DNA of 64,000 bases from Pomacea canaliculata. Its lineage: Eukaryota; Mollusca; Gastropoda; Architaenioglossa; Ampullariidae. The notes beneath the pieces were generated by a model. It saw only the letters and a list, made by a program, of their open reading frames with translations, made no database searches and was not told the origin of the DNA. Location of the stretch: the NCBI RefSeq assembly GCF_003073045.1, contig NC_037596.1:10103950-10167949 (forward strand). The letters are read 5' to 3'. Shown here one piece after another: positions 10,644 through 64,000 of the stretch (position 1 is its first letter; every line of letters begins with the position of its first letter). The position numbers were made by a program, and so were the translations under genes.

Positions 10644-12630
10644 ATGACAACTTTTCATCTGCTTCTGAATTTCTACTTCTTACAGTCAGGTAATAGTTTC
10701 AAAAACTTTTTTATTTTAACTAAGGATACACCCCTTGCTTGATAACGTGATTATGATATTTACTCGAGGAAATGTAGTCCTTAGGGTAGTGCTGTTGTAA
10801 CAATATGGTGGGTTTGTTTTGTTTTTTTTATATATAATAATTACTATAGTACTCGTAATATTAGGTCAGATGGCTTGGCTCATTTAATCACTTTGGTTGT
10901 TATGGGCTGGATAACAGGAACATTGACTAAATCCACGACCGATTCTGTCTGCTCAATCTGTTAGGTTGTCAGATCACATGTCAAATAAATTTCTTCCGTG
11001 TCGCAAAAAGCACATTTGCGTAAAATACATAAGCAAAATTGCTTACAAACACAGAGCCTGATCACATGGTAAGTGCTGTATATCAGATTAAGATTTATCC
11101 ACCAACGAAGTCTTTTTCTGTCTAAACGAAAATTAAACAAAACGATTCCCCATAATGTGGAAAAAAGTAAAACCTTTTTTCTTTAGTCTGATCTTCAACA
11201 GTGGTAATAAACTTTATTCACGTATGCGCCAGAATTAGGTTATTGTAGTGGCTGCCAAAGCATGTGAGCACTGATCTTTGCATCAAAAAAAGCTTTTATG
11301 CTGGGTTTGGAATTCACATTTATCTTTCAAATAGAGTTACAAAACTAATCGACGACCATAACAAGAAGAAGGCATACTCTTCTGGTCTGCTTACCTCAGA
11401 CAAAAAAAAAAATCCCACCCCCACTACCACCAAAAGTCACATCACACGAAAAGATCAATCACAAATAACACCCTTGTCAGCTTCAAGTAATAGAAACCAA
11501 ACTTTTACCCAATCCAAAAATATCCCAAATATCATTTGCACAAAACAGCAAACAGCAGTGCCTGTGCAATATGACTTTCTTTGTGAAGCTCTCAGGCATT
11601 CTTCAAGGTCTATGAGACCTTGCTTAGGGAAGCTGGAGAAGTCATATGTGAATAAGGTCTATATACAGTTTGAAAATTGCAATCAGGCTAAATCTGAGTA
11701 CTTGTGCATTACTGTAATTAGATCAAACAGACTTGAGCTGTAAGTTTACTCTCAGCCTTTGATCTCCTCCCTGATGAGTTGATATTAACAAATTTGTGCT
11801 TGCAGACCCCTTAAACTTGAGCGGTCTCATAATATTTCCGGCTTTGTCAAACTCTTACCTGTACTGCACGCATTTGTAATCTTACGTAAAAGGGATGTTC
11901 AATAAATGCTCATGATTGTTAATTTGTTTAATTTTTTTGTATTTTTTCAGTGCTGTCTATAGGAACGGAATACAGTTGTCCAAAATTTCAAATAGGCGTG
12001 AACCTCGTCACCTGTATGATTAATAAAACAGCAGTTGACAATGCAGCATGTCACTCCCGGCAGAACTATGTGACATTTGATAAGGGCGAAACTGTACTCT
12101 GCTTTGCACCTCGACCATCAACTTCTGGTTGTAGTACATCGCACAACACATCCTCTAACCCTTGTTGGTGTGTTGATTCAGGTCAAAACATTTTTACGTA
12201 TACGATTTCATACGTGGCCACCTCGAGTGATGTGGGAGCAATTCTGGAATGCAAATATTGTATAACACCAAACCCGAACGGTCCTGCTGGCTGCAAAATT
12301 GACAGCTTGGGTTAGTGTCACATGTTTATTGAATTTGTTTGCCTAAGAGTGAGAGAGTGTGTGTTTGCTTGGGGGAGAGAACGTGTTTATATACCGGCTA
12401 CTTGTTTTGGAATAAACCTGTGTAGTAGCATGTATGCACGTTTGTTAGAAGTGAAGTGGAAACATATGAGATAACATAAATATGTATGCACTGTCTAGTT
12501 ATTAGAGTGTCTGATACTTTACTTGTCTCTCACAGATTCTGGAAATCAAGCGTCAAGAGCACATATGATTTATACGACTCCGGCATGGCTTCTTCCAGTT
12601 CTCTTGTCATTCAGCGACTTTTATGGTTAG
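10644..12630 (+). CDS. Short cysteine-rich, GPI-anchored-like surface protein, cassette unit 1
   Basis: Three coding exons, all with phase-1 introns: 10644-10689 (signal peptide, MTTFHLLLNFYFLQSG), 11951-12310 (one 120-residue extracellular domain) and 12536-12630 (tail), about 166 residues. The domain has about ten cysteines, a CWC motif, the run TSHNTSSNPCWC with N-glycosylation sites, and a closing ECKYC. The last exon holds a small-residue stretch (NQASRA) and then a hydrophobic end with no basic cytosolic tail (WLLPVLLSF), as in a GPI-attachment signal; a plain membrane tail is possible. An alternative splice at 12625 to 13160-13191 would add about nine residues. The paralogue at 51964-58053 has identical exon lengths, which favours the unspliced end. 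A receptor gene follows on the same strand. Function is inferred: cell-surface recognition partner or decoy. The domain family is not recognised by name. Confidence 0.8.
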
Positions 12631-13501
12631 TGCAGTTATTATAAGAACAGGTCGCATGAAGTTAAGATGGTTATGGAAATGATTGCCATGAGCATCTTTA
12701 ATTTACTTTATGTTTTTGTTCACGGACTTCTGAGGTAAAATATGAGACCAAGCTTAAAGCGTTAGTCCTTGTGCTAATCCGTCAAATTTTTATCTTCGAC
12801 TGTGTTCCTAAATCTCTAATATTCTAATTATGAAAACCCTCTCTCGTTCAAAATTTTTCTCTGTTTTCAGTCTATCTCTCTAGCTCTGTGTGAGAGAGAG
12901 AAAGAGAAGTTTTTTTCCATTTGTATTTATATCTTCCGACTTGAATAAGAAATGAGAACCCACCCAACTCTTAACATTATTAACATATGTTGCGCCTATA
13001 ACTATATGATAATGTCAGTAATTTTCCGTCAGTCGTTTTCATAGTTACATTTATTAGGAATAGTTATCATAGCTTGTAAGTTTTTATCGCATTTGTATTA
13101 TGATAAATGCTTTTGTAACAGGTACTTTTATATCTGTATATAATGTCATTTTTTTTCAGGAAGGGTCCGTTTTCCTCTGCTGCTGCTCTAGTACTTAAGA
13201 ACCAACAATTGAAAAATTACAAAGTATATTCATGAACAGTCTAAGACTTCAGCTGACAGACTTTTACACTAACTCTTACTTGGACGAGTGATATGCAGCG
13301 ATTTTAAATGTATGTATAAAACGGAAGCTTGTTCTTGTTATTTGGTTCCTCTTTGTGTTTTCTGTGTTTGATTTTATTCTTCTTTTAGTACGTTTGTTTA
13401 TTCTTTTATAGTTCATATGTTATTTGTTTTCCTGTCCCTTGTATGCTGTCCATGTTCCTTAGGAGTGTGAGTATGCGCTTTACAAATTTTTGCATTTATT
13501 A

Positions 13502-15236: not shown

Positions 15237-15249
15237 TCCTCGTCTGGTA

Positions 15250-17507: not shown

Positions 17508-20500
17508 ATGTACTTCTGTGACTTGTGTGAGGTCGTGAAACCACAGATGTGGACAGTATGGACAGCACCTGTCTTGTTTTTTGTTGTTATCACAGGTAAG
17601 CGTGTGATCAACATTATTATAACATGTGTAGCTGTTGTGCTAGCACAAAGGTGAGATGTTTGAGAAACATAAAAAGAAGGCATGGTGACAACAGTCTTTA
17701 AAGATAGTTCTAGTTTTTTTTTTTCATACGTGTGTGTATACCATAATGGCAAAAAGCCATATGCGAATAGTTTCTTCGAAGTTGATCTTCGAGAAAAAAA
17801 ATTTAAGTACATGTATTTAATAAATAAAAAGAACTTGCTTCAAGTATCCAGTTTGGTTTCTCTCTCTCTATATATATATAAGAGAAAGAATGATTTTAAA
17901 GAATAATTTCTGTGTATGAAATGAATCTGAACCTTGAGATTATTGTAAAGCTGTTATTTTCAGGTGTAAACATTTCTCCCTGTGATGACAACGGTATGAG
18001 AGAAGTACTAGTTGACCAAGACACTGTCTTCACTTGCACGGCTGAGGGACAAGTCGAGTGGAGATTTGAATACAGTTTATACAGTCAAACCGTTTTGTTA
18101 GCAAAATGTGAAAGTACTTGCGAAGAGCTAAATAGTTTCAACAATCTGTTTAAAGCCAGTATATTAGAAGCTCGCCATTCAAGTTCTATGACCATCAGAG
18201 CTCGTAAACATCGGAGCATCGTCCATTTGACGAACGGCAGTCTTCTGTGTTATCGTATGAATGGCTCAGTGCAAGTGGCATCAGCTCGCTGTACACTCCA
18301 CTATGTGTGTAAGCACTACTGCAGATTTTCTTTATTTATTCATCTAGGACATTCGTTTAGGTCTTTCAAAGTTAAGCTGCTATTATTTTGGAGTGCTTTA
18401 TTGGATCTCGTGTCTGTTGTTCTTTGTGTAAGTATGTTTCATGGATGATATCATTGTTTGTTTCACAAAAAACTGGCTAAAACACAAACAGTTTTAAAAC
18501 TATGTCCTCAATAAATTCGCATAGCCTTTTAGATAGCATGTGTTGCCTGCACTTCTACCTTTTTGGTTGTCGTTTTGTCCTGTACAATAATCAGTCATTT
18601 ACAGATCCACCAGAGGACGTGTCATGTACGGCAGTTACTACGTCCTGGGCCGTGACTGTGTCCTGCTACGTCGCCAGTGTCTACTCCTCACGTAGACTGT
18701 ACACGTGTCAGCTTTACAGGCTAAACCAGGCAGTCAGTGTTAAGAGTTACATTGATACTTTTTGAAATAAGGAGAAATAGAGATACGCAAATTAAATACA
18801 GTTTGGATGCTGTGTGTCCGATTTATAATGCGCATTAACATATCTCCAAATAAAACCTTAAACACAGTTGATGTGAAATAACAAAAGAGCTTTTTTATTT
18901 TAGAAATACAAGAGTAGTCTATGGCTATGTTAAATAATCTCAATAGTTTAAAGTACCAAGCAATCGTTTCTTTGTGGAATCGACTTTTTTCGATGTTTGC
19001 CTTCAACTTATTTATTTATTTTGCATTTACAAAATACGTTCGCGTTTTGTTTCCTTGTTTCCGTCAAAATTGTATTTTTATTCTTCTCTGCTCATACTCT
19101 CATGGTTCCTCTATTACAGTCACAAAACAAAAGCTTGGAAACAGTCGCAATGCTGACCTCACCAACCAGCGAGTATATAGGAGAGAAAGAAGTGAAGGTT
19201 TCAGGTGTTTGTCAGTTCATCACCACACTGCCAACAGAGGAAGGACACTACTCTTTCCGTGTCTCTGTTTCGCCAGGTGGACGGACGTACTATGCAAACT
19301 TTCCAGATAAATACAACTGGACTACAACTGGTAAAAAAGAGCAGTCATTTTAAAAGAACATTTAGTGGCTGTTAGCTACACTGATCGACTCTCGCTATCT
19401 TTTTCTCATTGCCTCTCTCTCTCTCTAGTTCTGTACCTCTTTTCTCGCATGGTGTTTATGAAAGAAATGTACATTTTTTAAAATGACCGATGAACCTTGG
19501 ATCCTGCCCTTCTGTGTAAGTGTGCACGCGCGGTAGCATGTTCACGTCTTTGTTATCTTCTTCTTCTTAAAACCACGAGAACATATATATATATCCACAC
19601 ACCAGCTTTTTCGTGTACTTCAATCAATGCAAAGCAGAGCTTCCAGTCTATAAATAAGATTCTGCGTTTTCCTGTGCAGAACGCCCTTCTTTACCCAGGG
19701 TGTCTTGTGGTCCACAACAATACTTGTTAGAGACTACAAGCGCCACCTGTACCTGTAAAACCTCTTCTCTGGGCCATCCTGCAGGTTACTTGATATGGAT
19801 CATAGGTGATCAGAGATACATGGAGACAACAGCCTCTGAAGGCCAACAAAATCTCGCATCACACGAACTACATCATACGCATTTCTTCACTCAAGCAGAC
19901 CATGGAAGAACCTGGTTCAGATGTGATGTGGTCTGGGGACTGGAGAAGATACATGGAGAAAACTGCATTGTGAATGTGGGATGTATGTAAACAATCTAAT
20001 CCAAATTTTATAGTCTCTAACTACACTTGAAACTCCTTCCAGTCTGTATGCATGCGTCCTAATACATTTACACGAATTTGCGTACATGAAATCCAAACAC
20101 ATGGGTATACATTAATTCCTCAACTGTTTACTCGTGTGTGGCTAGCAGCTATTTTATAAACTTGTGAATGTTCTTTTATGGCGCAGTGACAAATATTGAC
20201 CTGGAAGTAGAGGGATTATAGACATATGAATAAGAAATGTGAAAGAAGTATAACAATCCCAGAATTGACTGTTATGTTATTGATTGTTACTCTATGATGA
20301 GTAGACCTGTATCACGTATTTTCTTGATCATTTTCTATCATTATATGAATATGAAAATTTTGGTACGTCCTTTCCATGGTAAATGATGTAAAATAGAGGG
20401 TCATCGTTGCTCTAATTTTTCAGAATATCTCAAGCAATATCTACATTAATAAATCGCCTCTTTGCCAACGATTCAAATAAAGAAAATGTCTACATCATAA

Positions 20501-23500
20501 AACTTTGGGTGAAACAGCAAATTATGAATTTCCTAAGGTATGTGATCTTATTTTATAGACGCTGCCAGACCAGCACAGTTTGTACTCAACGGCAACAAGC
20601 AAAATCAAACAGTGAATAAAGGACAACAAGTAAACATTTTGTGTAAATCTGACGGTCGGCCCACACCACACATCTCCATCTATAGCAATGACAACAACTC
20701 TGTTATCGTTAAAGGCTTGTCTATTATCAACTACACCCTCATCGCTCGCTGTGAGGACACGGCCACCTACACGTGCTCCGCGTGGAACGAGTTTTCACGT
20801 CAGTCAGGCGTGACCTCCTCCGTCAGTCTTGACCTCAACGTCCGGTGTAAGTGGAAGATTCTTTTGTAGGTCGTTTCTTCTGATTCCTAGTCGAAACTTT
20901 CCAGCAATATACGTCTCATTCTCATAAACCTTACACACACTCACACACGGCTTCATTTTTCATTTAATTTATTTATTTGTTTGTATGTGTTGTGTTTTGT
21001 GATTTCTTTGTTTTCTTTGTTATATGTGTCTTTAACAGGCAAGCCTCGAAGTCACTCGTCTACACGACTTGGATTTCACATGATGAACCACCAAACGGAA
21101 ATGAACTTTGACATAATAGCTTACCCCGTACCACACGAGTATCACGTGTGGTTGATAAAATCACCAATAAACAACAGTGAAGATGCCCACATTGAAGGTA
21201 AAGACACCATGGTAAACATCACCTGTCAGTCTGGTGTATTTCGCCGTTACCTGTCCACATGCTCTCTGAGAGTCGTCAACATCAATTCCCTGACAACAGG
21301 CTCCTACAAGGTGCAGGTCATTAACGAGGCTGGTGACGAGAACTTCACTGTCACAATAGACTTCAGTGAGTAAATACAAGAGATGCCTGTCACAATTTCT
21401 TCTGCATGGTACTGTTTTATCTGGGACCAGCAGTGACTTCAAAGAACGCAGAAAATAACGATAAAAATCAAACATATTCTTGAGCAACATTTATCTTCCA
21501 GAGACCTTTACTTAGAGGAATACTACTGCAAAACTTAGTGAATCGTACAAGCGGTGTGGATTTGAACAAAAGCCACACAAACACACACGTCACATTCTGC
21601 TTTCTTTCTGCATTGTAAATATAATTGTGCACATTAATGGCAAGTGAATATAATTAGTTATTAGTTTATAATTTATATTTTTCTTCTAGATGTCGCCAAA
21701 GACCTGGAATCATATTACCCGGCCGTTACTAGTGTGTGTGTCGTCGTGTTTATCTTCACGATTGCTGCTATCATTGTCTTACTTAAGAAAAAGAAGGAAA
21801 GCAAAGGTAAGCTATAGATAGCCTCTTCTAATTAAAGGAAAGTGTTACCGAATTATTTACTCAGATAAATGTAAATGTCATGCTTATTTTTCTATTATAA
21901 TTTTATATTCTATATTTTAAAGCTTTTTATTAGCCTCCCACTGTATAACCTTCTGATAAAGCTTAACAGGATGATGTCCACTTAACATTAACCATATCCG
22001 AGAATATCTTATAAGACTTTTTTGGTTATGGCTTTATTATTTGTCACAATCTGCCAAGTTTTGTTGCTAGTCTGCGCAAAACTGAGAAGCGAGTAATAAA
22101 AATTAATGGCGATCGCTTTAAATATCCGGAACATAGACTTTAATCAACCAGGCGTGTAAAGACTCCAGACAGTCGTGTTGGGGTTCAAACTTCTTGCTGG
22201 TGATAGAAGGGAAGCATCATTCACTTGTACAGAGCAATATTTGCCATGATGTCCAAAGGAAGTTCTTATCCCCCAGAACTGCTTTGACATACTAGCTTCC
22301 CAGACCTAACCCTTACAATAATACTCAGGATTCACATCTTCAAAGCAGAGATAGCCTCCGACGCTTCACAGCCGAATCCCTGTCAGACAAGACAAAAAAG
22401 AAGGGAAACCCTCGTCCCTCCATAACGATGACACAAATGTGCCAAAGCAGGTAAGAGTAAATTTAGTTTTGTATGTTATCGTGCTGGAAAAGACAAGGAT
22501 ACAGGATCAGTAAATCTTATGAGATGATGTTTGAACGTCGTTTGCCTCTTTTTTTGGTTGCATCATTCATTTATTCGTTTCTTTCTTTCCTTTTATGAAA
22601 CGCGAGTGAATGTGTTGTAAAGAAAATATTAAGGTCGTGTAAAAAATGACGGCTTTGTTGCTTTTTCTCTGATACTTTCATTGCATAGAACTGGTGGACA
22701 TTCCATGTGTGGACTGCACAGCCACAGAGTAGTTTACATATTTTAGAAAGGTTTTTATAGTCTTAACCACCTCCTTGTTAATATTGTGACTATAATTATC
22801 ATTCTTTGATACTTTGTTGACCAACTTTAAACTGATTTCTCTGCGTGCAGGTCGAAGGAAAGAGAACAGTTTAGTCAGTGAGAAGTAAGTGAAAACGGAC
22901 AATAGGTGAATAAATAAATCTTTGAGGGAATCCTAGCATCTGGGTCGAACAAAAGAACATCCTTATGATCAAAACCGAAAGTTAATTTTTCAAGAAAATA
23001 ATCAAAAAATGTATTTATGCATAGATATTAAATTTGACAATGTTGCACACAATCGGAAAAAGTCTCAGACGCATTTTCTTGCTCAGAGCAGGTGTCCACA
23101 CTGGGTTCACAGTGTACCCACATGTACACGACAGAATAATTTCTTGCTTCAGACATTCTCAGTTGTTTCAAACCTCCAAACGCTCTCTCCGAGAGTCTAT
23201 TGCTGATCATGTAGTATTAGGCAGCTTGTGTTTTCTTCTATCTCTTTTTTCCTCCCCATCAAAATCTGTCTGTTAATTTAAAATCGTTCACACTGATAGA
23301 CTGACAAAAAAAACTGCAAGCTGAACGGAATGAACATTTGACGAAATGTAAATGGGGGAAAATTCACACAAAGTAATTTTTTTACAGACAATGTAATAGC
23401 CTTCATTTAGCCGAGTGCCTGAATACTGTGCAGCACAAGATGACGAGGCTAAAAGTGGATGTCCGCAGTCCAGTCTCACCTTTCCATATTCTTGTTGAGG

Positions 23501-27194: not shown

Positions 27195-30100
27195 CTTTTA
27201 TCTTGTTCCTGATTACGACAATGAGTACAGAAGCCAAGATAACAACTCCAGCTAGAGTCACCAACATGAAGAAATTGTTTTGTGGTAAAACAGTGTCTTC
27301 TTCGACTGAAAAACAAACAGAACAAATAAGAAAAGTCAATCAGTTAATATTTTTAAGTATACGTGGAGACGTTAACAAAAGGAGGACTACTACTAAAACG
27401 AATTTAAAAGGTTACCAGTAATTTTTCTCTTCCTTCACTGTCAAGCAATTGTACCTTTCACTTCAATAGCAACAGATACTTAACTGAGCTGAATGGTGAG
27501 GTTCTCAATACCATAATCATTGATGAGTTGCACCTTGTACATGCCAGTCCTTGACAGGGAGTAATTGCTGAAGACAGTTAAAGTACATCTGGATATATAA
27601 CGGTGCTTACTGTCAGATTTACAGGAAACATTTGCATCTGAAATTTGAACATAAGAAAATATACTGCTGTGGTTTAATGGTTTTGCCAACCACACACCAG
27701 CCCCAGAAGGTACCGGGAAGGCGATCACATCAAAAGTCAGCTCATCTCTCTCGTGTTTGACATAAATATTGATAACATTTGTGGATGACACGCTCCGAGG
27801 TTTACCTGCAACATTAGAAAATGGCAAAACTCACATCAAGTATCTTCCTTGATTAAACACTAGTAAATGATAACAGTAAAATGTAATGTCTGTTTAATAT
27901 TTAATAAAACATAAACACAAACTGTTATTGTTAAGTAAATGAAATATGCATTGACAGGGAGTAGGGGTTAAAGGATGGACTTAATAACATTTATCGGTGT
28001 TGTGGTGTGGAAAGAACAAACACGTTTTCGGAAAAATGTTTTGACATGTGTCAGCTAAATGCTACTACTTACATCCAGTATCAAGCTGGATGCTGAGCGA
28101 GGTAGTCACGTGATGTGAAAACTCATTCCACGCGGAGCACGTGTAAGTGGCGGTGTCCTCACAGCGAGCGATGAAAGTGTAGTTGATAACAGACGAGCCT
28201 CTAAATATAACCCTGTCATTGTCATTATTATAGATGGAGATGTTAGGTGTGGGTCGGCCGTCCGATTCGCATCTCAGGTGAACTTGGTCTTTCTCCATGA
28301 CTGTCACGTGACGCTCACGACCGTTGAGAAAAATTCGTGACGTCTTGGGTGCATCTGTAAAAGCATAATAAAGAGTAAATAAAACAAATGTATATCAGAG
28401 TCAGTGTAATATTGATAATGATTTGTGTTTCTTTGTTTTGTTTTTAGAATAGATCATAACTTCTTTCATAACAAAGTACTTGTACATTACAAAGGCTATT
28501 GCATTGCAGTTTACAATAACTGCACATACATGCATTCGGTCATCTACACTTTCGGGAAGCTTTTGAAGTTTCTTGCATGGTGAAAAGGGCATTCAATTCT
28601 ATTTATTTATTTAAATCTTAAATAGATCAGTATTATCTATAATATCTAAAAGAAAGAATTAGAGATTTGCAACGAGTTATTAATTTCTTCTTTGGTAATT
28701 ATTGGAATCAAACCCTACAACACCTGGAGCACAAAATACTGCAAAAAAATTTAAATAAAACAATTATAAGGCCATTATTTTTTTTTAATTTGTGCATGTC
28801 ATTGACAGAACAGTCACAGTTTTTCTAGGGATGGTAACTTTGATGCTTAGCAGATTTTATTTTTTTGTAAGTAATCATGTGACCTATGCTTCTGAGCAAA
28901 TTTACTCAAAAGTCGTCTCATAGTGCGATGTTGAATTTACTCTCTGCTAAACCGCCGTCAGGATTAGCTTTCTTTGTATTCTAACAATGTTTAAAAATGA
29001 ATCAAGAATTTTTTTTTACTTACGACCTACACTAGCAGTATAGTTCTGCCCGGGTATCGCATATTGTCCCCAAATGATGTCGCATCTCACCCAAGCTTTT
29101 CCATGGTCTGACAGAGTGAAGGACTGGCTATAGTGTAGTTCGTTTGGAGTTGACAATTGTTGTCGTTTCATGATTGACCCCTGCTGGGTCGTGTCTTTAC
29201 CTGCGACCCACGCCAGGTACCCTGCAGGTTGTCCAACACTTGCAGCTTTACAGGTACACGTGACATTAGTGTTTTCTAACACGTGGGGCTGTGGACTGCA
29301 AGATACAATCGGTGACTTGGGCCTCTCTAAAGGAAAAAGGTAATTTTTTTTAGAATTTGTGTATAAACATAATATATCTATTAAAATACAACCATATTAG
29401 TGTATCGTTTGTAGATCTTATAAGAGAACAGTGTGTGTGTGTGTGAGAGTGAGGCAGATATACAGACAGAGGGAGGGAGAGGTTAACTTGCTTTTGTTTG
29501 TGTTGATGATTTATGATTTTTGTTGAATGTAACTTTAAAGACAAATATGTACATTTCATTACCGATTGCCACTAACTTGTCTTCGACACTTAGTGTTCGT
29601 CCACCTGGTGAGACAGAAACAAAGAACCCATAGTTTCCTTCTTCTGCTGGGAGTGTTGTGTTGAACTGACAGAAGCTTGAGACCTTGACTTCACTCTTAG
29701 TAATCTTTTCATTGTTAGGTGATGTTACCATGGTAACGGTTTCCAGTGTTTTGTTTTCTGACTGTACGAAATATAAAAAAAATAATAGAAACAATAAAGC
29801 ACTACAACAACAAGAGTCCAAGTCTTAATCAGTAATTCAGTAATTAGAATGCAGAAATAAAAATAAGAATCTCTATTTCTTCCTGTTTGGGTTAGCCTAA
29901 GAGCACAAATATATTTAAATATGCATTGCACATATTATAAATTAGAGACTTGAACGGGGTTCTAGCTTTAAATAAAGAGCGACTCGTGAGCTGATTTAAA
30001 GCCACAACGTATTTTACATATGAGAGCAAGTTATACCAATAAGACAGAATGACCAGCCATGACCCCGTTTTTGTAATGGGGACTTACCGCATTTTTACTT

Positions 30101-31032
30101 CGAATTAGCTGACACTTGTACCGTCTCCGGGAAGAGTAGACACTGCCAATGACACATGACACATGGACAGAGAACGAGGAGTTGACTGCAGTGCATGAAA
30201 TGTTCTTTGGTGGGTCTGTTAAAAGACAATAGACTGACATTTGCATTTCCATTCCGTGCATTCTAGTTTTATATAGAGTTTATTGTAATCATGTAGCATT
30301 TTGCTACAGCAATCGAAAGTGTCTAATAATCATCAAAGGTGATAAGCATCCATCAGGTATCCATTCCCTCCAGGCTGATAGACTGAGGAAATTTTACTGC
30401 GCTACACGGGTATCGAACCAGATTGCCTCTCACTTTGGACACCAGTATTTTAACTACTCACTATCCGCTGCCCTATTTGTTTATCTCTTTCTATGTGTGT
30501 GTTACTTACCCACATAGTCAAGCCCACAGCCAGCTGACATGTTATCGGCATCGCGACGAGTACACTCCAGACTGCCGTTGAGAAAGTGGACATTGTTATA
30601 CAACCTTGTGTTATTCACGGTGTTGACGATGATAGATGTCGTGTTGTTATTTATGACAGCGGCGGTAAACAGCCCATCAAAGCTGTTCATCAGAACAAAC
30701 ATGTCGCCTGTTGCTAACACCGCTGAAGTCATTCGGTTTTCTCCCTTTGTCCTCCAATCGTAATAATGTAGTCGCCATTCTACTGGCCCCTCAGATGTGC
30801 AGGTGAAACGAGTTTCGTGACCAGCCAGGACCTCCTGCACACCTTCACTACCACAGGGTGAGAGAAGGACACCTGTAACACACCAAGATTAGACATGCAC
30901 AGCTCTGTACAAAACTATTTATGTAATTTATAGAGGAACCATAACTCGTCAGTATCTTAGCAGTGTAGTGGATTCACCTTTGATGATTGGCAGATCAAGA
31001 ATGAGAAGAAGAGTGCCGACAATCCACAGCAT
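27195..31032 (-). CDS. Multi-Ig-domain type I transmembrane receptor, cassette unit 2 (3' end unresolved)
   Basis: Exons on the minus strand: 31032-30978 (signal peptide MLWIVGTLLLILDLPIIKG), 30872-30510 (Ig-like 1), 30215-30088 and 29761-29563 (split domain 2), 29326-29024 (domain 3), 28354-28073 (domain 4, GRPTPNISIYNN and EDTATYTCSAWN), 27805-27485 (domain 5), 27305-27195 (transmembrane, FMLVTLAGVVILASVLIVV then RNKIK). Intron phases match receptor 1 throughout (1,1,0,1,1,1,1,1), and the domain-3 exon is 303 bases in both. This is 587 residues to the end of the transmembrane exon. The cytoplasmic exons were not found. Reading through the donor at 27194 gives a short lysine-rich tail ending near 27070; an alternative is a tail exon inside the last introns of the convergent receptor 1. 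Its short partner gene lies 1.9 kb upstream on the same strand. Confidence 0.8.
30300..30476 (-). mobile_element. tRNA-like SINE in receptor 2 intron
   Basis: The minus strand begins GGCAGCGGATAGTGAGTAG (A-box-like) and has GGTTCGATACC, a near-perfect pol III B box, about 45 bases later, then a non-tRNA body ending near 30300. It differs from the 10010 family. Ends are approximate. Confidence 0.6.
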
Positions 31033-47820: not shown

Positions 47821-47958
47821 ATGCGTATATATAAATACATATAAGGCCAAAAGCGCTATTAGAATTTTCCAAGTCATTTCATTTTCTTTTGTGTTAAACT
47901 GCAGACGTGGCTGCAGCTCCGTGTATAAATGTTGACAAACCAAATGTCTAACTCAATT

Positions 47959-51963: not shown

Positions 51964-54900
51964 ATGACAACTTTACACCTGCTTCTGCATTTCTGCTTCT
52001 TGCCGTCAGGTAATAATTACAGAAACTATTTATTTGAAGTAACCACACACACCTAGCATGCTAAGGAAATTATGATGCGTATTCGAGGAAATAGTCCTTA
52101 GCGTATGGTAGTGCTGTACTATAGTAACAAAGAAATACTAACATACTTATAATATTAGGTCAGGTGGCCCTGCTCATTGAATCACTTGGTTGTTATGGGC
52201 CGAACATCTGGATCACTGACTAAATCAACGACCAATAAGTCCATAAAATCGACGATCAAGTCCGTATAACTACCTGTGTCCTGCTTGTCGATCAAGATGT
52301 CAGACCCTTATGTCTAAACTTCCGCGTGGCAGAAAAACATAACTACACTGTACATAAAATTGCTTACAAACACAACGCCTGATCATACCGTAAGCGTTGA
52401 ATGTCATATTAAGATTTATCCAACACCAAAGCCTCTCTCTGTAAAAACGAAAACAAAACCAAACGATCCAACATAATGTGAAACAAGAAGTTTTAGTCCG
52501 ATCTCGAACAGTTTATAATGGACCTTATTCATGTAGACGCAGAACCAGAATGAGGCCCCAGGTGAATGCTAAAACATGTGAGCACTGAGCTATAAATCTA
52601 TGAATCGAAAAGTCTTCAATACTGGGTTTGGAATTCACTCCATTTTCCTACATTTACAATTAACGAAGAAAAATTATTTGCTAAAATTGGATTAGCTTTC
52701 TTATAGAGTAGTAACCGACGGCCATAAAAAATCTTCTCATCTGCTAAACCATAACCCTCAATGTTTTTTTATTAATAATGCAAAAGTCACTTGACTGTAA
52801 ACAGCCAATCAAATATAGCACTCCTCTATAGGTGTCTGCTTCAACTAACTGAAACCAAACTCACATATTACCCAATGCACAGAATGACAAACATCAGTAC
52901 CAGTGCCATTTCACTTTCTTTGTGAAGCTCTCAGATATTTTTCCTCAAGGTCCATAAGACATTGTTTTGGAAAACTGGAAGAATCATGTGTATAAGGTCC
53001 ATGAGTGATAAAACTGTCATTTGATCAGTGCAAATATTTCCATCAGGCTAAAGCTGAGTACTTCTGCATTAATTTGATGAGATCAAAGAGACTGTACTGT
53101 AACTATAGTCTAAGCCTTTGTTAATCAGGATTCTTCAATATTTTTCAGTTTTTCTGTTGTGGACGTAGTAGTAACACTGTCCACTTTTATGGGTTTTTGG
53201 AAGGACTTGTTTGCTGCAATGAGTAAAGCATGTTAGGGTAAATAGGACTATCTAGATGCAAAGTACTCTTAATGAGCAATAAGAAAAAGAAGGGCATAGG
53301 TTATAAGATATCTCACCACCGTCTAACATCAGTGTTGAGTAAGAGGCAAAATGAAGAAGGTATATAAAATATAACTGTGGCTCACTTTTAAAAAAATCCA
53401 TTCTGCCGCGAATCACAGTGGGAAGCAGGGTTTGGCAAGGTAAAGGTTTCAATATAAATTGTAACAGGGTTTTAATGTTGTCTGTAACTATTACTAGAAC
53501 ATATTAAACACTTTAAGAACTACTTCGACAAGCATAGTCTTTTACTTATATAAGGACCTTATTTCTGAACACTGAGGATCATGGAAAAAACATGCATGAA
53601 AAAGCATCTGAAGTATGATTTCTATAATTGGTGGTAGTGGGATGAATTAGATATTACTCATATGATCTTAAAGGCCTAACATTTATGATGATGATAACTT
53701 AATGCTGAGATAGTGAATAAATACAAGCACGTATGAGTGTGTGTGTGAGAGAGAGAAAGGAGAACACTTTAGTCGCAAAAGACAATCATTGTCTTCAGAC
53801 ATGAATGTCGGATATGTTTATACCTTACAAAACAGCTAGTTTTTAAAGAGAGATCAGATCACAGAGGTATATCTCTGAACTGCTGGCTGCCTCCCACTAC
53901 AAATTCTTAGCCTTTAGTGAAGTTGTAGGATGTCAGGTTTCTTAGCAAGCCATTTAACAGTTTAATATCTGGAATGTGATAATATTTTAGAAGTCAACAA
54001 TAGAATTACACTAAATCTATGACTTTATATTTCTGTCTTTTGGGGGAAATGTCCTCATTCTCCACTTTCCAAAACTTAGAGCAAATAAACTGACAACACA
54101 ACAGACCATAAAGTTTAATTTGTTTGTGCCTCCTTCAACAGAAGTGTTTGCATCATCTGCTTTTCTTCTTGATTTTGATTCTAGAAGTTAATACGACGAA
54201 AAAATGTCTTTAAGTAGTCCACAGACGTATGCCCATGATCAGATAAAGAAAAGACTGGCACATAACCTAACCATGAAAGTCAAAGTTGACCTATTAACCC
54301 TTTGAGCATCGTGGGCCACAAACATGGCTCAGTTCATATGACCCAAGAATAGTAAACTGAATTTTCTTGGATTTCTGTTGTCACCAGAGGGAAAGAAAGT
54401 AGGCAATTTTCATTACTTTTATTCCAAAGTTCAAGTTTTCTCCTTTGCGAAACTGTATAGCTTTCTTGGTCTATTGTTAACCTGAGAGGGGTAGAAATAA
54501 AAATAAACATCTCCCACTGATATCTTTACCATCTTAAATTATCTGCCACTGTTTTATCACATAATTATACTTTTATGCTGGGCTAAGACAAGGGGAGGGG
54601 GTAATTTGTGTCGTACGCTGAATCAGCAACTAAAGTTCTAACATAGCAAGGGAGCCAGACCTGTAAACAGATAAAACATGCAGAAAAAGAACTGCATGCC
54701 TGAGACAAGATCTAAACCCAAGGCAGGCAACCTACACTGGGTATTAGTGACAGGCACTAACTTTTGCACTATACCCTAGACAAGTGTGACACATTTTATG
54801 GTTATCTTGTAGTTAACACAAGTATGAACCACTAGCAAATACACCTGAGACCGGACACCAGAGGAGTGGGTTAGGGTGTACAGCTTTACATCCTTCAGTG

Positions 54901-57900
54901 AAGGGTAAACAATGCATGCAGGAATTTTTTTATGTTTTATCGTCAGGCTGTGGAGAATGGAAGCAAGAAGTTACTGTAGCTTAACCTTGCTAGGTCTCTT
55001 GCATTACTGAAGGGCTAAAATCAACCTTCATTGTATTAATATTTATTCTTATATGTATATATCATTTAGCTACAATTAGCTCATTTGATAATAATTTATT
55101 TTTTATAATGTTTTACCCCATCATCAAAGGCTAGCTTTGCATTACAAAAAATTGCAACAGTAATAATAATAATAATAACAGAAGCTGGTCTCAAAGGAAA
55201 GCATTCATTGCATTCTCAGTTAGTAGGGCTACTAATGTTGAAAAGGTTAATGCCATCAGCATATTATGTGTTCTACAACCTAGCCTTTGCATGGATATGT
55301 ATAAATTCTAATTAAAAAAGTAACTGAAAGTTATTAGGATGCTTGTATAGAAGCACAACTTGCAATCTGTGGTGCAGTGGCATAACATTTGCTGACAAAG
55401 ATGTCATGCCATCAATACAACTCTTGTTAGGCCAACATGAATAGGGTCCTTTACGCCCGCCTTTTGTACAGGGCAGCTTGGGTACCACGTCACCCGCTGT
55501 TGCTGCCCGTCTCGCGCTGCGCGCCGCTCGCGCGACCACGCGTGGGGTGGAGGGGCTAAGCACTGTCAGCAGTACCTGCTGACCTAAACAGCGCTCCCGC
55601 TACAAAAGCAACGTAGTGGGCGTATTATTGAGATGGAAAGATTATTGGCGCTTTGGTTGGAAGACAAAAAAACCAATGCCGTATCCCTGTGAGTTTTATG
55701 GTTGTTCAGGAGAAGGCTAGGCGACTGTTTGAGGCGTTGAAAAGAGAAAAGTGGGAAGGAAGTGAAAGTGAAGAATTTGTGGCGAGTATAGGGGTTGGTT
55801 TATGAGGTTTAAGGATCGTGCCAATTTCCATAACATTAAAGTGCAAGGTGAAGCTGCTAGTGCTGATGAGAAAGCAGCAACTAAGTTTCCTAATGCATTG
55901 GCTAAGATAATTGAGGAGGGTGGTTACTGTGCTCAACAAGTGTTCAACGTGGATGAGACAGGCTTGTTTTGGAAACGTCTGCCTAACCTAACACTGTTTA
56001 TTACTGTTACAGCACTTACAGTACAGTATTTCATTATTAAACGTACTGTACTACAATATTTTACTGTACTTATGTTTATTGATAATTATGTAGGTTGCTG
56101 TGTTAGGATAGGTGTTTGGATAGGCTAAGTGTTTGCAGTACTGTACTGTTATTATGGTACAGTACTGTATGAACGTAGGATCCGACTTACGTCGAAATTC
56201 GGTTTACGACGCCGCGTAAGAACGGATCCCCGTCGTAAGTCGAGGACTACCTGTATAAAACAACCAAACATATTAACATTTTCCTTTATTACTTTATAAT
56301 TTTACATTAACTGTTCATAATATGTGATGATTAAGCAGTGGTAAAGTAACAGGAGTTTAGTGGATTGCCACATTTAAGTTGGCTAAGCAAAGAGAAAGTA
56401 ATTGGAGTTTGAGCTGCAGAGTTAAAACTGACAGTACTTAAAATGTATTGTTATGTTTGTAATTAGAAGTTTGTGTGCATTGTTTTATGTGGACATTTTG
56501 GGTTTTTTAGTAAGATCTTCATATATTTGTTTGCTTGCTTATTTGTGTTTAGATGGTTAGGGCTGTAATATTTTTTTTACTTCTGCTGAAATACAATTTT
56601 GAACAGGCACTCATAAAATGTTACTGCTGACAAAACAATTCAGGCAAATGGGACAGAAGAGGAAGTGTTGCTGATTTTATGAATAATGAATGAACTCTCA
56701 AGATTTTAATGAATGGACTAGGAAAAATTACAATTATCATATACTCATAAGACCAAGCCACTGCACTGATTATACATAGCGTTCAGAAGTTATTGCATTA
56801 TACTTAAAGAGTTAAGTTTGTTTTAATGACAAGAGATGTGTTGTTTTTTTTAAATATCGTCTTCGTCCACTTATCAATTGGGACACAACTGTGCAAGAGC
56901 AATTAGGAAATCTTGACTGGGTTACAGCCCTTTCATTTCATTGCTTTGGCTCATGCTATCTTAACAGTCAAGCTAAAGTTGTGTCTGTTGTCAACAGACT
57001 AAGTGTGAACGTTGATTTACTACTTATCTTCTCCATTGTTAGGTAAAAGGTAAGTAAGTTGCTAAAAAGATACATTTTAATGAGATTTTGCTGCTGCAGT
57101 TTAGATGCTAAGAACATAGTTAATATGCTTGAATGTCTCAATGCGCAGACAAAATTGTGTCTGTATACACATGACCTATTTGAAAGTTTTGTTCACAAAT
57201 TTATACCTGCAGCCAACATAAACATGAGCACACTTTCATCATATTTCAGGCTTTGTCACTGTTGTACTGCACACATTTCTAATTTTGCATAGAAGATATA
57301 TATGTGTATAATACAACAAACGCTCATAATTGTTGATGTGTTTAATTTTTATCTCTCTTTTTTTGTATTGTTTCAGTGCTGTCTACAGTAATGGACTATA
57401 CTTGTCCAACATTTCAAAAAGGCTGGAACAAGATCACTTGCAAGATCAATTTAACATCATTTGATGATGAAGCATGTGACTCCCTGCAAGAAAATGTGAC
57501 ATTTGAAAAGGGAGAAAATAAACTATGCTATGCACCACCACCAGCAGCGTCTGGTTGTAGAACATCGCACAACACCTCCTCTAACCCTTGCTGGTGTGTT
57601 GAATCGGATAACATTTTTACATACACGTTTTTATACGTGGCTGCCTCGAGTGATGTGGGAGCATCCGTGGAATGTAAATATTGTATAACATCACACAACA
57701 CAAACGACAATGTTGGCTGCAAAATCAGTAGCTTTGGTAAGTGTGACAAGTTTCTTCATTTTGTGTGACTATGTGTGTGAGTGTGAGAGATATATATATA
57801 GAGAGAGAAAGAATGATGTAGGTATGTACTTGAAATAAACCTGTGTAGTAGTAGCAATACGTTTGTTACGAGCGAAATGGACAAAATGAGATAGTATATG

Positions 57901-58053
57901 TCCTTGTAAGCACTGTATAATTAGTTGTCTATCTGATTCTTTTAATGCTCTCTCACAGATTCGGAGAATCAAGCGTCAAGGGCAGATATTATTTATACGA
58001 CTCTCACATGGCATCTTCCAGTTTTCTTGTCATTCAACTTTTATGGTTTATGA
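51964..58053 (+). CDS. Short cysteine-rich, GPI-anchored-like surface protein, cassette unit 3
   Basis: Exons 51964-52009 (signal peptide MTTLHLLLHFCFLPSG), 57377-57736 (domain) and 57959-58053 (tail, stop TGA), 166 residues. Exon lengths (46, 360, 95 coding bases) and phases equal those of the copy at 10644. By eye about 60-65 percent of domain residues are shared, including SGCxTSHNTSSNPCWC, SSDVGA and ECKYCIT; the tail keeps NQASRA and a hydrophobic end. The first intron is 5.4 kb against 1.3 kb in unit 1. Both intron ends still align with unit 1, and the extra roughly 4 kb between about 53.1 and 57.2 kb is repeat-derived (SINE, Tigger relic). Receptor 3 starts 2.0 kb downstream. The GPI call rests on the tail only. 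Confidence 0.8.
54640..54785 (-). mobile_element. tRNA-derived SINE, second copy
   Basis: Minus-strand sequence follows the copy at 10010-10181: GTTAGTGCCTGTCACTAAT (A-box side), CCTTGGGTTTAGATCT (B-box region), then the body with GTTCTTTTTCTGC. It is more diverged, with no clear target duplication. It lies in the expanded first intron of the third short gene. Confidence 0.65.
55436..56253 (+). mobile_element. Tigger-type (pogo/Tc1-mariner) transposon relic
   Basis: The right end, read inward on the minus strand, is CAGGTAGTCCTCGACTTACG next to TA (56254-56255), the known Tigger terminus, with the associated GGATCC..GGATCC inverted region at 56168-56230. Inside lie parts of a TIGD1-like transposase: MERLLALWLEDKKTNA (from 55633), VVQEKARRLFEALKREKW, DRANFHNIKVQGEAASADEK and FNVDETGLFWKRLP (to about 55985), then directly 3' untranslated-type sequence. 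The DNA-binding N-terminus and all after the first catalytic aspartate are missing. The left terminal repeat was not seen. Confidence 0.82.
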
Positions 58054-59735: not shown

Positions 59736-59799
59736 TATAGTGAAAATAGGCGGCTACACTCCTACCATCCTGCTTCATCTATCAGCCTGCACATCCACT

Positions 59800-60034: not shown

Positions 60035-63000
60035 ATGTACTTCTGTGATTTGCATGAGAATAAACCAGGGATGTGGATTGTGTGGACAGCACATGTCTTG
60101 GTATTCTTTGGTGTCACAGGTAAGGTTATGAGCAACATTGTAACATGTAAAGCTGTTGTGCTAACACCAAGGAGAGATGTTTGAGAAACACGAAAGGAAG
60201 GCACAGAGACAAACTACCCTTTGTTTATATCACTTTGTGAAAAATATTGTTCTTGATTTGTTCATACATTTGTGCATAGCATAAGAATGACGAAGACTGC
60301 GGATCTTGATAGAGAGATATTAATTTCTTAATAAATAAAAGGAATTTGCTTCAAGTATCCATTTTGATTGTATATATACGAGAGAGAGGAAGACATCAAG
60401 AATGAAAGTTTTAAAAAATAATTTATGTGTATGAAATAAATCTAAGCTTTGAGGTTGCTGTACAGCTGTTATTTTCAGGTGTAAATATCTCTCCATGTGA
60501 TGACAACGGTGTGAGAGAAGTACTAGCTGACCAAGACACTGTCTTCACTTGCACGGCTGAGGGACACGTCGAGTGGAAATTTGAATACAACGATTCCAAT
60601 AAAACTGTTTCGTTAGCAAATTGCGAAAGTACTTGCAAAGAGCTAAATAATTATAAAAATCTGTTTAAAGCCAGTATAGTAAAAGCTCGCCATTCAAGTT
60701 CTATGACCATTACAACTGTAAAACATCGGAACATCGTTCATTTGTTGAACGGCAGTCTTCTGTGTGTTTTAATGGCTGGATCCGCGCAAGTGGCATCAGT
60801 TCGCTGTGGACTCCACTATGTGTGTAAGCACTACTGTATATTTTATTTAGAGTTATTTATTCATCTATTGCATAAGTTTTAGTCTTTAAAACTTAAGCCA
60901 TTATTATTTTAAGTGCTTCATTTAATCTCATATCCGTTGTTCAGTGTATAAGTGCTTTTCATGGAGGATACAATTTATTTACTTAAGTGTAAAAACGATT
61001 ATAATCATTTATCTGCCTTGTGATTTTCGATTCTCCCGCTCACCATCGACAACTGTTGTTTTCCTCAAAACATTCGGGTGGATTACACCAGTCTTTTCAT
61101 TTCGTTTCTATGTGTACTATAGACCTATGAGATTATACAGTCACCTTTATTAAAGATTTTATAAAATAAGGAAAATAAAGGTAGGTTCTTGAAAGGTGCT
61201 ACGAATGTGGGAGGTCCCACCCTGAAATACGTTTTAGTTTTTGTTGTTGGAAGTTGATATTTTTCTGGTTAGAATCGAAATATCTAGAAAGGATAGGTCT
61301 GATGCTAGCGTCTTATCACCTTTATAGTCTAGAAATGGCTGTTCGTAATGCATCCCCACCTCATAGCCTAGTATACGGTATGCGTTTTCTACACTTGTAT
61401 CTGTTTATTGTCGTTTTGTCTTGTAAAATGATCACAGTCCTTCACAGATCCACCAGAGGACGTGTCATGCACAGCAGTTAATACATCCTGGGCCGTGATT
61501 GTGTCCTGTTCCGTCAGACGTGTTTACTCTTCACGTGGACTTTACACGTGTCAGCTTTACCGGCTAGAACAGGTCTAGTGGGATTTTTGTAATCTATTTA
61601 AAATAAGGAGATATGGATAAATACAAATTAAATATATGTACAGTTTTGATGCTGGGTGTTCTTTAAAAAATGAGCTCAAACATATCTCCAAATTAAGTCC
61701 TAAACATAGAACCAACAAAAAGTGCCGGGTTTTTTTTTTCACTCTAAAAGTAAAACAGCAGTTCATGGCAATGATGAATGATCTCTGTTACCAGTCGTTC
61801 CTTTGTGGAATCGACTTTGTTCGATGTTTTACATTATTAAGCATGTATTTCTTTCTGTTTGAGTTTTTTCATATAAAAGTTAATAATAATATTAGAATCA
61901 ATATCGTCATAACGACTTGCATTTTCATTTCATTTCTTGCACTCTGCATTGTAATTATTGTCAGTAAAGACTATAAGATTGCACAGTAACACATTAATAA
62001 AGGGACTGAAACTAACGTCTTAATAACGTTAAACAACAATGTCTAAAAGTTTTTGCTTTAAAAAAGGTTTTAAACTCTTCACAATTTTATAATGTTTATT
62101 TAAGATTTTTGTTTTACATTCATAAAATCAGTTCTTGATTTGTTTCCTTGTTGCCGGGAAAACTGCATTTTCATAGTTCTCTGCTTCTCTGCTCATACTG
62201 TCATGGTTCCTGTATTACAGTCACAAAACAAAAGTTTGGAAACAGTCGCAATGCTGACCTCACCAACCAGGGAGTACATAGGAGAGAAAGAAGTGAAGGT
62301 TTCAGGTTTCTGTCAGTTCAACACCACACTACCAACAGAGGAAGGACAGTATGCTTTCCGTGTCTCTGTTTCGCCAGGTGGACGGACGTACTATGCAAAC
62401 TTTACAGATAAATACAACTGGATTACAACTGGTAAAAAAGAGCAGTCATTTTAAAATAATATTTAGCGGCTGTATCCGAGATAAAGACATTTTCACTGTC
62501 TCTGCCTCTGTCTCTCTAGCTCTCAACCTCTTTTCTCGCACGGTTTTCATGAAAGAAATTACCTTCACCTTTTCGATCACGTGTAAAACTTGGATTCTCA
62601 CTATATGTGTGTGTGTGTGGGGTTTTTTTTTAAAAGTGCGGTGACTTTTTAAAACCACGATCATATGTCTGATTTTTTTCCGGGTGTTTGAATCAATGCA
62701 AAGCAGAGCTTCCAGTCTACAAACTAAAAATTTGTTTTCCTGTGCAGAACGCCCTTGTTTGCCCAGGGTGTCTTGTGGTCCACAACAATACGTGTTAGAG
62801 AATACAAACGCCACCTGTACCTGCAAAACCTCTTCTCTGGGCCAACCTGCAGGTTACTTGATATGGATCATAGGTGACCAGACAGACCTGGAGACAACAT
62901 CCACTGAAGGCCAACAAAATCTCGCATCACACGAACTCCATCATACGCATTTCTTCACTCAAGCAGACCATGGCAGAACCTGGTTCAGATGCGATGTGGT

Positions 63001-64000
63001 CTGGGGACTGGAGAAGATACATGGAGAAAACTACACTGTCAATGTGGGATGTATGTGGATACTTATTCTAAATTTTATACGTCTCTTTGAACTTCATTCC
63101 CTCTATATGTTCCAATGGATTTACATGAATTTGCGTAATGGAATCCATACTCACCTTTCAGATGGGTATCTATTCATTTCTCAACGGTTTATTCGTCCGT
63201 GGTTAGCAGCTACTTTTATATACAGGGATTACTAACAAATGAATAAGCAGTGTGAAAGAACTATAAAAATCCTAGCGGCAATTGTGGTGTTGTTAATTGT
63301 TACTCTGGGATGAGTACACTTGTATTATTTATGTTCATAGACATTCTATAACATCATATAAATAAGAAAATTTCAATAGTCCTTTCCACTGAAAAAAATA
63401 TAACATGGGGAAGGGGGCTTCATTGTTCTAATTCAGGGATGCCCAACCTACGGCCCGCGGGCCATATCCGGCCCGCGACACGGTGCCATCCGGCCCGCGA
63501 AACTTCTGCCCACAGTGCAGGAAATCGGCATGTTAGTAATAAAAAAAGACCGAAAAAAACGAAAAAAAGGGAAGAAGAAGTATGTATCCCTACGTACGTA
63601 GGGGCGTCTTTCAATCTTTTTTTCGATGGACGAACATTTCGATTCAGTTCTCCGACTTGGTGTCTCTACGATACAGCCGGACATTCAGAAGTTGGTTTCG
63701 GGAAAACAACTTCAAATATTCCACTAATTACTACATAATTAATGGTAAGTACAACTTCTTTGTAATAAAAATGGTATCTGCTCTATTTTTTCTTCTTTTT
63801 TTGTGTTTTTGCGGTGAAGCGGCCCGTGACACACATGTCGGAAATGTGTATGGCCCGCAGGCCGAAAAAGGTTAGGCATCCCTGTTCTAATTGTTCCGAA
63901 AATCCCTCGCAATATGTACAATAATAAATTGTCTCTGTCATTAAACTTTGGTTGAACCAACAAACAATAAATTTCTCTAGTGATTTTATTTTATTGTACA
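60035..64000 (+). CDS. Multi-Ig-domain receptor, cassette unit 3 (truncated by window end)
   Basis: Visible exons: 60035-60119 (signal peptide; shares the MYFCDL start and WTA core with receptor 1), 60479-60823 (Ig-like 1, 115 residues), 61448-61572 and 62221-62431 (split domain 2), 62748-63050 (domain 3). Lengths equal receptor 1 except the first (85 vs 88 bases) and the first half of domain 2 (125 vs 128 bases). Domains 4 and 5, the transmembrane segment and the tail lie beyond the window: the last bases align with the end of the matching receptor 1 intron, so domain 4 should begin within about 20 bases past the edge. The last visible intron carries a hAT MITE. Domain 3 is about 88 percent and the second half of domain 2 about 90 percent identical to receptor 1, but Ig-like 1 only about 76 percent (counted by eye). 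Confidence 0.82.
63434..63884. mobile_element. hAT-type MITE in receptor 3 intron
   Basis: Termini are CAGGGATGCCCAACCT and its near-complement AGGTTAGGCATCCCTG. It is flanked by the perfect 8-base duplication TTCTAATT (63426-63433, 63885-63892). The matching intron of receptor 1 keeps the unoccupied site CTCTAATT near 20410-20417. Some interior sequence reads in frame for short stretches, but no transposase motif is seen. Confidence 0.9.

Follow-up and report, generated by a model that had tools for sequence, protein, structure and literature searches.

In the tunicate Botryllus schlosseri, the fuhc locus harbors pairs of fester family and fester co-receptor genes (FF/FcoR), in which a gene without known signaling motifs is located beside the gene of a cognate immunoglobulin (Ig) receptor (PMC12065747). 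The FcoR proteins are described as type I proteins with Ig domains, a transmembrane (TM) segment and a tail containing an immunoreceptor tyrosine-based inhibitory motif (ITIM), a hemi-immunoreceptor tyrosine-based activation motif (hemITAM) or YxxI/L/V motifs (PMC12065747). A similarly paired array is reported here for the snail Pomacea canaliculata. The analyzed stretch of 64,000 nucleotides (C7:10103950-10167949, hereafter the window) contains three cassettes, each composed of a short gene (S) and a multi-Ig receptor gene (R), designated S1 to S3 and R1 to R3. The gene structures, the pairing, the joint descent of S and R, the tail motifs and the homogenization of the last tail exon described below were established by calculation. 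As a tentative reading, which we favor over the alternatives, S and R of a cassette may be matched partners that form one complex on one cell, within an immune-type array.

The snail array and FF/FcoR have several traits in common. More than 37 and 53 loci are given for FF and FcoR (PMC12065747), while the snail clusters A and B together comprise 37 S and 55 R. As far as the description of the tunicate locus goes, gene pairs are the unit of variation and one region contains co-receptor loci only (PMC12065747), in which the snail array may be alike. Tyrosine motifs as in FcoR tails are present in many snail R but have been lost in R1, R10022 and R10062. On the other hand, the hosts are a tunicate and a snail, the FcoRs are described as fester-related whereas snail S and R show no similarity to each other, and snail S consists of a single cysteine-rich orphan domain (PMC12065747). 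A sushi domain among the Ig domains is reported for FcoR (PMC12065747), while R has five Ig-like domains and no sushi match was obtained in R1 and R2 at an expectation value (E) of 0.1. Whole FcoRs are given as 520-610 amino acids (PMC12065747), a size which R1 reaches up to its TM alone (604 amino acids). We do not count the snail array as a member of FF/FcoR. The logic of paired genes, ITIM-type tails and clusters is known from Botryllus; the orphan S domain, the five-domain R, the homogenized tail exon, the mollusk host and the unrelated partners set the snail array apart.

Vertebrate paired receptors (LILR, CEACAM, Siglec, CD300), as far as described in the sources used, likewise combine similar ectodomains with tails that possess or lack an ITIM or an immunoreceptor tyrosine-based switch motif (ITSM), occur in clusters and undergo gene conversion. 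What separates the snail array from them is that many R are accompanied by a second, unrelated gene and that the TM of R1 contains no obvious charged residue. Moreover, the conversion described for Siglec-11/16 affects the ectodomain region, whereas in snail R it is the last tail exon that is homogenized. The receptor CgIgIT2 of the mollusk Crassostrea gigas resembles R in its five extracellular Ig domains, its TM and a tyrosine motif given as an immunoreceptor tyrosine-based activation motif (ITAM), but its description mentions no paired small gene, and the comparison with R is one of descriptions only (PMC11999971). In Biomphalaria, too, single-pass membrane genes that have no relatives beyond the gastropods form clusters, the polymorphic transmembrane clusters GRC/PTC1 and PTC2, which control schistosome resistance and to which extreme haplotype divergence linked with this resistance is ascribed; the PTC2 genes are reported to have no known domains except a TM, whereas snail R has recognizable Ig domains (PMC7494358). 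The Alr complex of Hydractinia also comprises a large family of the Ig superfamily, 41 members in one complex, but V-set and I-set domains are described for it and a paired small gene is not mentioned in that account (PMC11999971). By title or abstract start, no description of the snail array was found in the open-licence literature searched, which is a weak negative.

Structure of the paired genes

All six genes of the three cassettes are present as the initial annotation had proposed, S being located upstream of R on the same strand, and cassette copies match one another at the protein level with E of about 1e-16 to 1e-60. The exons were located as follows (positions refer to the window).

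10644..10689, plus strand: S1 exon 1, start codon, signal-peptide-like (MTTFHLLLNFYFLQS)
11951..12310, plus strand: S1 exon 2, single cysteine-rich S domain
12536..12630, plus strand: S1 exon 3, short hydrophobic C-terminus resembling a glycosylphosphatidylinositol (GPI) signal; end counted by hand
17508..17595, plus strand: R1 exon 1, start codon, signal-peptide-like
17964..18308, plus strand: R1 exon a, membrane-distal Ig-like domain D1; alone without Pfam match
18605..19330, plus strand: R1 exons b (18605-18738) and c (19120-19330), which together encode domain D2 and are separated by a phase-0 intron
19680..19982, plus strand: R1 exon d, C2-set domain D3 (Pfam C2-set_2)
20559..20846, plus strand: R1 exon e, Ig domain D4 (Pfam Ig_3 / I-set)
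21039..21365, plus strand: R1 exon f, membrane-proximal domain D5
21690..21806, plus strand: R1 TM exon
22329..22354, plus strand: predicted short R1 tail GFTSSKQR followed by a stop; weak acceptor, prediction only, end counted by hand, downstream tail exons decayed
27195..27305, minus strand: R2 TM exon
27485..30872, minus strand: R2 ectodomain, here exons a (30872-30510), b (30215-30088) and c (29761-29563), by splice-site reading
same span, minus strand: R2 exons d (29326-29024), e (28354-28073) and f (27805-27485)
30978..31032, minus strand: R2 exon 1, start codon, signal-peptide-like
32923..33005, minus strand: S2 candidate exon 3, ANSRAAADPVFPTFILMTMLFLAWVIH followed by a stop, GPI-signal-like; candidate only, coordinates counted by hand
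33872..34258, minus strand: S2 exon 2, S domain; ends taken by hand from splice sites
51964..52009, plus strand: S3 exon 1, start codon, hydrophobic
57377..57736, plus strand: S3 exon 2, S domain
57959..58053, plus strand: S3 exon 3, hydrophobic C-terminal end; coordinates counted by hand
60035..60119, plus strand: R3 exon 1, start codon, hydrophobic
60479..63050, plus strand: R3 exons a to d, beginning with a (60479-60823)
within this span, plus strand: R3 exons b (about 61448-61572), c (about 62221-62431) and d (about 62748-63050), read by hand

Positions 10644 and 51964 (S1, S3) as well as 17508, 31032 and 60035 (R1 to R3) are the ATG codons of hydrophobic first exons. Position 34258, which had been taken for the start of the S2 gene, is instead the first base of S2 exon 2 behind a splice acceptor and not a start codon; a first exon of S2 was not found within the 9 kb searched. 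A six-frame profile search at E 0.05 revealed no fourth S or R in the window.

The claim that exon lengths and phases are alike within each gene type was confirmed. In S1 and S3, exon 1 comprises 46 and exon 2 comprises 360 bases, and the third exon has about 95 bases in both (counted by hand). The eight exons of R1 and R2 measure 88/55, 345/363, 134/128, 211/199, 303/303, 288/282, 327/321 and 117/111 bases and share one phase pattern. After splicing, R1 and R2 have open frames of 604 and 587 amino acids, respectively, counted through the end of the TM exon. R3 extends beyond the window, its exon e starting about 7 bases past position 64000, and the following 4.4 kb contain matches to all remaining R3 exons (e, f, TM and long-tail exons). 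Copies 1 and 3 can be aligned at the DNA level outside the exons as well (main blocks 68-76%), while copy 2 aligns with them in receptor exons only, apart from one 129-base repeat outside the genes.

R is composed of a signal-like exon, five Ig-like domains and a TM exon, D1 being encoded by one exon, D2 by two and D3 to D5 by one each. Its identification as a multi-Ig receptor was borne out by matches above the curated Pfam cut-offs in both R1 and R2 (D3, C2-set_2; D4, Ig_3 and I-set). D1 and D5 alone were below the Pfam cut-off or without match, and D2 was without match in R1 and R2; D1, D2 and D5 are termed Ig-like because of their exon structure and cysteine pattern.

Twelve diverse S members share 13 invariant positions, eight of which are cysteines. 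For these members no relatives were detected in Pfam or PDB, nor any Ig family in Pfam. We regard a Thyroglobulin_1 match of one S member (E 0.021) and two PDB matches (E 0.2 and 0.84) as chance hits. The idea that S is derived from an R domain was also rejected, a comparison of S profiles with R domains having given no similarity. Hydrophobic last exons, judged by eye, occur in S1, S3 and, as a candidate, in S2, whereas the candidate last exons found for s6660 and s10524 rather resemble TM ends. GPI-anchored proteins have a cleaved hydrophobic signal at the C-terminus with an omega site. The earlier label "GPI-anchored-like" has these short hydrophobic C-terminal exons as its basis, and GPI anchoring of S1, S3 and, through its candidate exon, S2 would be plausible.

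Pairing of S and R in the genome

The genome searched comprises 440,159,624 bases in 24 contigs, C7 making up 7% of it. Single-protein searches were performed with S1, S2 and a distant S, and R was searched with exons a, c, d and f; cut-offs lay between 0.01 and 10, and match counts are lower bounds for large families. At least 44/49, 56/60 and 50/51 matches of the three S queries were on C7, and likewise at least 54/58 (exon a), 76/78 (c), 82/87 (d) and 49/49 (f) of the R matches. Well-scoring R exceptions are three places at C1:31.71-31.73 Mb, detected with exons a and d, and for S the strongest match off C7 is located on C11 (E 0.004). Judged from these matches, most receptors of this type appear to be concentrated on a single chromosome. 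R-domain relatives on C7 were seen at 0.8, 1.7-2.7, 6.6-6.9, 8.3, 9.7-10.5, 13.7, 22.8, 24.2, 26.3, 27-28, 29 and 30.7 Mb, the weaker ones with marginal E-values, and hardly on other contigs. Diverged S-domain genes also lie at C7:2.24-2.72, 27.05-28.28 and 30.74-30.87 Mb.

When receptor exons with E below about 0.01 were chained to R loci, cluster B (C7 9.65-10.53 Mb), to which the window belongs, contained 24 S and 37 R. Cluster A (6.6-6.9 Mb) contained 13 S and 18 R, part of which are fragmentary. For 20 of the 24 S in cluster B, the next downstream gene is a same-strand R at a distance of 3.1-18.3 kb (12 pairs on the plus and eight on the minus strand). In 20,000 shuffles each, this number was never reached, whether type and strand (mean 7.1) or only type (mean 9.5) were permuted. 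When 264 kb were searched more sensitively with a profile, two diverged S were added, giving 20/26 tandem pairs, again not reached in 20,000 shuffles (means 7.4 and 9.6). If a head-to-head R (next upstream gene, opposite strand, no distance limit) is counted as well, 24 of the 26 S are paired (0/20,000; means 13.0 and 13.2), and none of the 24 S detected at first lacks a neighboring R in one of these two arrangements.

Some places in cluster B are less regular. At C7:10481731-10485023 (plus strand), exon a (with a stop) and exon c of one chained R flank an S exon at 10482992, which may represent a broken or interleaved unit. The 7-kb flanks 3' of exon f of R9995 (from 9991502, minus strand) and R10086 (from 10090374, plus strand) are 96% identical over 6.8 kb in opposite orientation, which may reflect either the recent duplication of a cassette in inverted form or an artifact of the assembly.

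Joint descent of S and R

The S tree (28 domains) and the R tree (20 receptors, exons a and d) have a deep split in common which divides 18 pairs into 10 and 8 (support 95/94 for S and 100/99 for R). The closest duplicates, s10000/s10080, s10026/s10058 and s9745/s10234, also agree in both trees. Larger trees (44 S, 40 R exon a) revealed a third S clade of eight members, five of which have a head-to-head R within 7.4 kb and one within 17 kb, while two have a tandem R. The R neighboring this clade belong to one exon-a clade (96/95) in six of eight cases; R10440 and R10465 fall outside.

In a Mantel test of S against exon a, none of 10,000 permutations reached the correlation observed over 27 pairs, including six head-to-head pairs that we assigned ourselves. 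Permutation within clades gave 15/10,000 with maximum-likelihood distances and 454/10,000 with tree distances. The overall signal between S and exon a held after near-duplicates had been thinned to 19 or 13 pairs (4 and 2 of 10,000); with 11 pairs, 58 of 20,000 permutations reached it for S against exon a and 13,087 for exon a against exon d of the same receptors. Clade labels, which were taken from the trees, agree in all 16 tandem pairs at 9.74-10.34 Mb; four of 20,000 shuffles matched this value, and circular shifts of the labels resulted in at most 12 agreements. Tree congruence, distance correlation and matching clade labels thus indicate that S and R largely descend together. Taken together with the pairing in cluster B, the shared duplication supports a heritable S-R unit. 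Joint descent by itself, however, does not demonstrate an interaction of S and R.

Receptor tails

All tail exons are predictions from the genomic sequence. Cytoplasmic exons could be read in R9917, R9995, R10086 and R3, where the motifs TPLYAVV, VVYAVV or VLYAVV occur; VVYAVV or VLYAVV is encoded by the second tail exon in all four. Whether R9995 uses its first tail exon is doubtful, since splicing at the acceptor position of R9917 would not keep the frame there. The last tail exon encodes DYQNI-x10-DYVQL and TEYC(A/T)L. Genome-wide, it was matched at 19 places, all of which lie on C7; in 16 cases a same-strand R is located a few kb 5' of the match. Fifteen tails were aligned, four weak places (E of 0.24 or more) being left out; two of the aligned tails, R10204 and R10225, contain a stop. 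The ITSM consensus is TxYxx(V/I) and the ITIM consensus (I/V/L/S)xYxx(I/V/L); in vertebrates these motifs are usually inhibitory. TxYxx(L/I/V) is present in 12 of the 15 tails, five with the strict TxYxx(V/I) and seven with TxYxxL, and four tails show an ITAM-like spacing. The motifs in many R tails lend support to the immune-type function proposed in the initial annotation.

Between R3 and R9995, R10086 or R9917, the synonymous distance (dS) of the last tail exon is only 0.08-0.12, while that of the ectodomain exons is 0.44-1.40. For R3 and its sister R1 the relation is reversed, with an ectodomain dS of 0.06-0.40 and a dS of 0.67 in the remnant of the last tail exon (27 codons). With its low dS beside a high ectodomain dS, the last tail exon has been copied between old receptors. 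In R1, R10022 and R10062 the last tail exon is broken. The first tail exon of R1 has lost its tyrosine-bearing stretch, and in R10022 and R10062 the tyrosine is replaced by a cysteine. If one and the same weak acceptor is used, R1 as well as R10022 are predicted to end with GFTSSKQR, whereas R10062 would read on. Close relatives among R therefore occur with or without tyrosine motifs. Mixtures of motif-bearing and motif-less relatives are typical of vertebrate paired immune receptors.

Constraint on the genes

The first-found S exons of cluster B contain no stop in any of 24 cases, and among the copies listed for clusters A and B, almost every S or R exon has an open frame. Exceptions with a stop were seen in s6825, in exon a of R10481 and in the tails of R10204 and R10225. 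The ratio of non-synonymous to synonymous change (dN/dS) was below 1 in 45 of 49 pairwise exon comparisons, which share sequences and are hence non-independent; 33 of the 45 values lie between 0.3 and 0.6. The prevalence of values below 1 argues for functional proteins. Values of 1 or more, all based on few changes, were obtained when the s10000/s10080 units were compared in S (3.95) and in exon a (1.33), for exon e of the s10026/s10058 units (1.02) and for exon f of R10062 and R1 (4.24). The S comparison of s10000/s10080 involves 0.5 synonymous and 7.5 non-synonymous changes, and this pair is suggestive of a hint of selection. For the last tail exon of R9917 and R9995, dN/dS was 1.32 on three synonymous changes. 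Positive selection as proof of recognition was set aside since the pattern is inconsistent across comparisons.

Further features of the window

A 444-base repeat occurs at 9395-9838 and 47954-48397 (93% identical, same orientation), and two adjacent sets of repeat blocks lie about 4 kb apart at 42370-43782 and 46410-47600 (86-95% identical). Open frames at 2995-4458 (minus strand), 15213-15554 and 55772-56128 (both plus strand) gave no Pfam match at E 0.01; by their appearance they resemble fragments of transposases or retroelements.

Interpretation and alternatives

The cassettes could be the building blocks of an extensive immune-type receptor array located on a single snail chromosome. S would be a small secreted cysteine-rich protein, probably membrane-tethered and without a recognized signaling part, and R an Ig-type receptor with five domains and a single membrane pass, the tyrosine motifs of its long-tailed form being ITSM/ITIM-like. 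Retained and copied jointly as matched partners, S may act as the recognition subunit and R as the signaling co-receptor of a same-cell complex, and the exchange of tail exons among copies would provide similar ectodomains with different signaling. One complex on one cell is favored because of the same-strand adjacency of the two genes and because S lacks a recognized signaling part. The proposal presumes that the genes are expressed, that S is anchored in the membrane and binds R, and that the array is used in self/non-self recognition or pathogen sensing. By analogy, a same-cell split of recognition and signaling, as suggested for the Botryllus FF/FcoR pairs in the description available (PMC12065747), would be most likely. 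Allorecognition of the colonial type does not fit a solitary snail.

A number of results weigh against such a partnership. Only three of the 13 S of cluster A are paired, which is not above chance (2,236 and 19,944 of 20,000 shuffles equal it), the remainder being mainly S runs on one strand and R runs on the other; for both clusters together, 23 of 39 S are in tandem pairs. R loci are more numerous than S and a number of them are unpaired. The two diverged S of the profile search have neither a tandem nor a head-to-head R; their exons, at C7:9952418-9952741 and 10041331-10041636 (plus strand), are both open (E 2e-6 and 2e-4). Two of the tandem pairs in cluster B are doubtful, s10471, whose R has a stop in exon a, and s10349, whose own tandem R is 18 kb off while a head-to-head R lies at 2.4 kb; without them 18/26 are left. 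A partner swap is suggested for s9774, as its R clusters with R9966, which is unpaired. Among the four closest units, s10115 is placed outside by the S tree, but the R of s10161 by the R tree. After thinning, the within-clade correlation of S and R was not significant (1,691/10,000 with 19 pairs, 612/10,000 with 13), nor was that of S with exon d in the 11-pair set (4,066/20,000). The 49 exon comparisons gave no consistent sign of positive selection. Finally, cytoplasmic exons were sought for R2, R9966 and R9969 with nothing convincing found. Thus, the assumption that S is usually unpaired does not apply to the cluster of the window (20/26) but does to the smaller cluster A (3/13). The view that the pair is kept as a unit agrees with the pairing on both strands of cluster B and the joint duplication, and is limited by cluster A, the solitary R and the one apparent partner swap.

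The main rival to a partnership is co-duplication without interaction: a block of roughly 10-20 kb with two fast-evolving surface-protein genes may have been copied and inverted repeatedly, S and R never interacting. This rival is serious because copies 1 and 3 share DNA beyond the exons and because S and R of cluster A live apart, in S-only and R-only runs. Co-phylogeny is expected from block copying, much of the pairing could arise in this way, and the loss of significant within-clade congruence upon thinning also points in this direction. On the other hand, pairs have lasted over a receptor ectodomain dS of about 0.4-1.4 with their frames open, most units of the third clade keep R beside S in a head-to-head orientation, and every first-found S of cluster B has its R, even though the two later diverged S do not. 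Considering both sides, we regard passive copying as a possible but somewhat doubtful explanation. It is unlikely, though our second choice among the functional readings, that S is a self-tag which is read by R on a neighboring cell, for instance a hemocyte, in a missing-self or incompatibility reaction, linkage keeping the specificities matched. S ends appear membrane-tethered and without a signaling part, many R tails carry ITSM/ITIM-like motifs with their usually inhibitory role in vertebrates, and linked ligand and receptor genes would be the expected genetics; the same-strand adjacency, however, is equally well explained by shared expression in one cell. That the S exons serve the receptor gene as alternative 5' exons, so that a cassette is one transcription unit, would agree with the upstream position of S on the same strand and with phase-1 exon ends compatible with R exons. 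Yet each of the three cassettes provides R with a separate start codon and signal-like exon, and the last exons of S1 and S3 are terminated by a stop of their own, by which a single fused S-R gene is ruled out, and most third-clade units are arranged head to head. One transcription unit is therefore highly improbable.

Significance of the array

Beyond the preferred reading of matched partners in one complex, a more far-reaching possibility, which we hold with considerable reserve, is that a supergene similar to FF/FcoR or to the major histocompatibility and natural killer complexes was built independently in a protostome. It would consist of dozens of linked, matched pairs of an orphan membrane-tethered recognition protein and an ITSM-like-tailed Ig receptor on one chromosome, in which signaling and motif-less forms are switched by exchange and decay of tail exons. 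If true, this would be a second case of pairwise-multiplied recognition genes, here in a mollusk and with an unrelated small partner, and would point to a convergent logic of self/non-self receptors. In the resistance clusters of Biomphalaria, a partner gene beside such receptors may be worth seeking. The tail exons would provide a case in which receptors with and without signaling motifs convert into one another, and the array allows a concrete question to be asked, namely whether each S binds its own R and no other.

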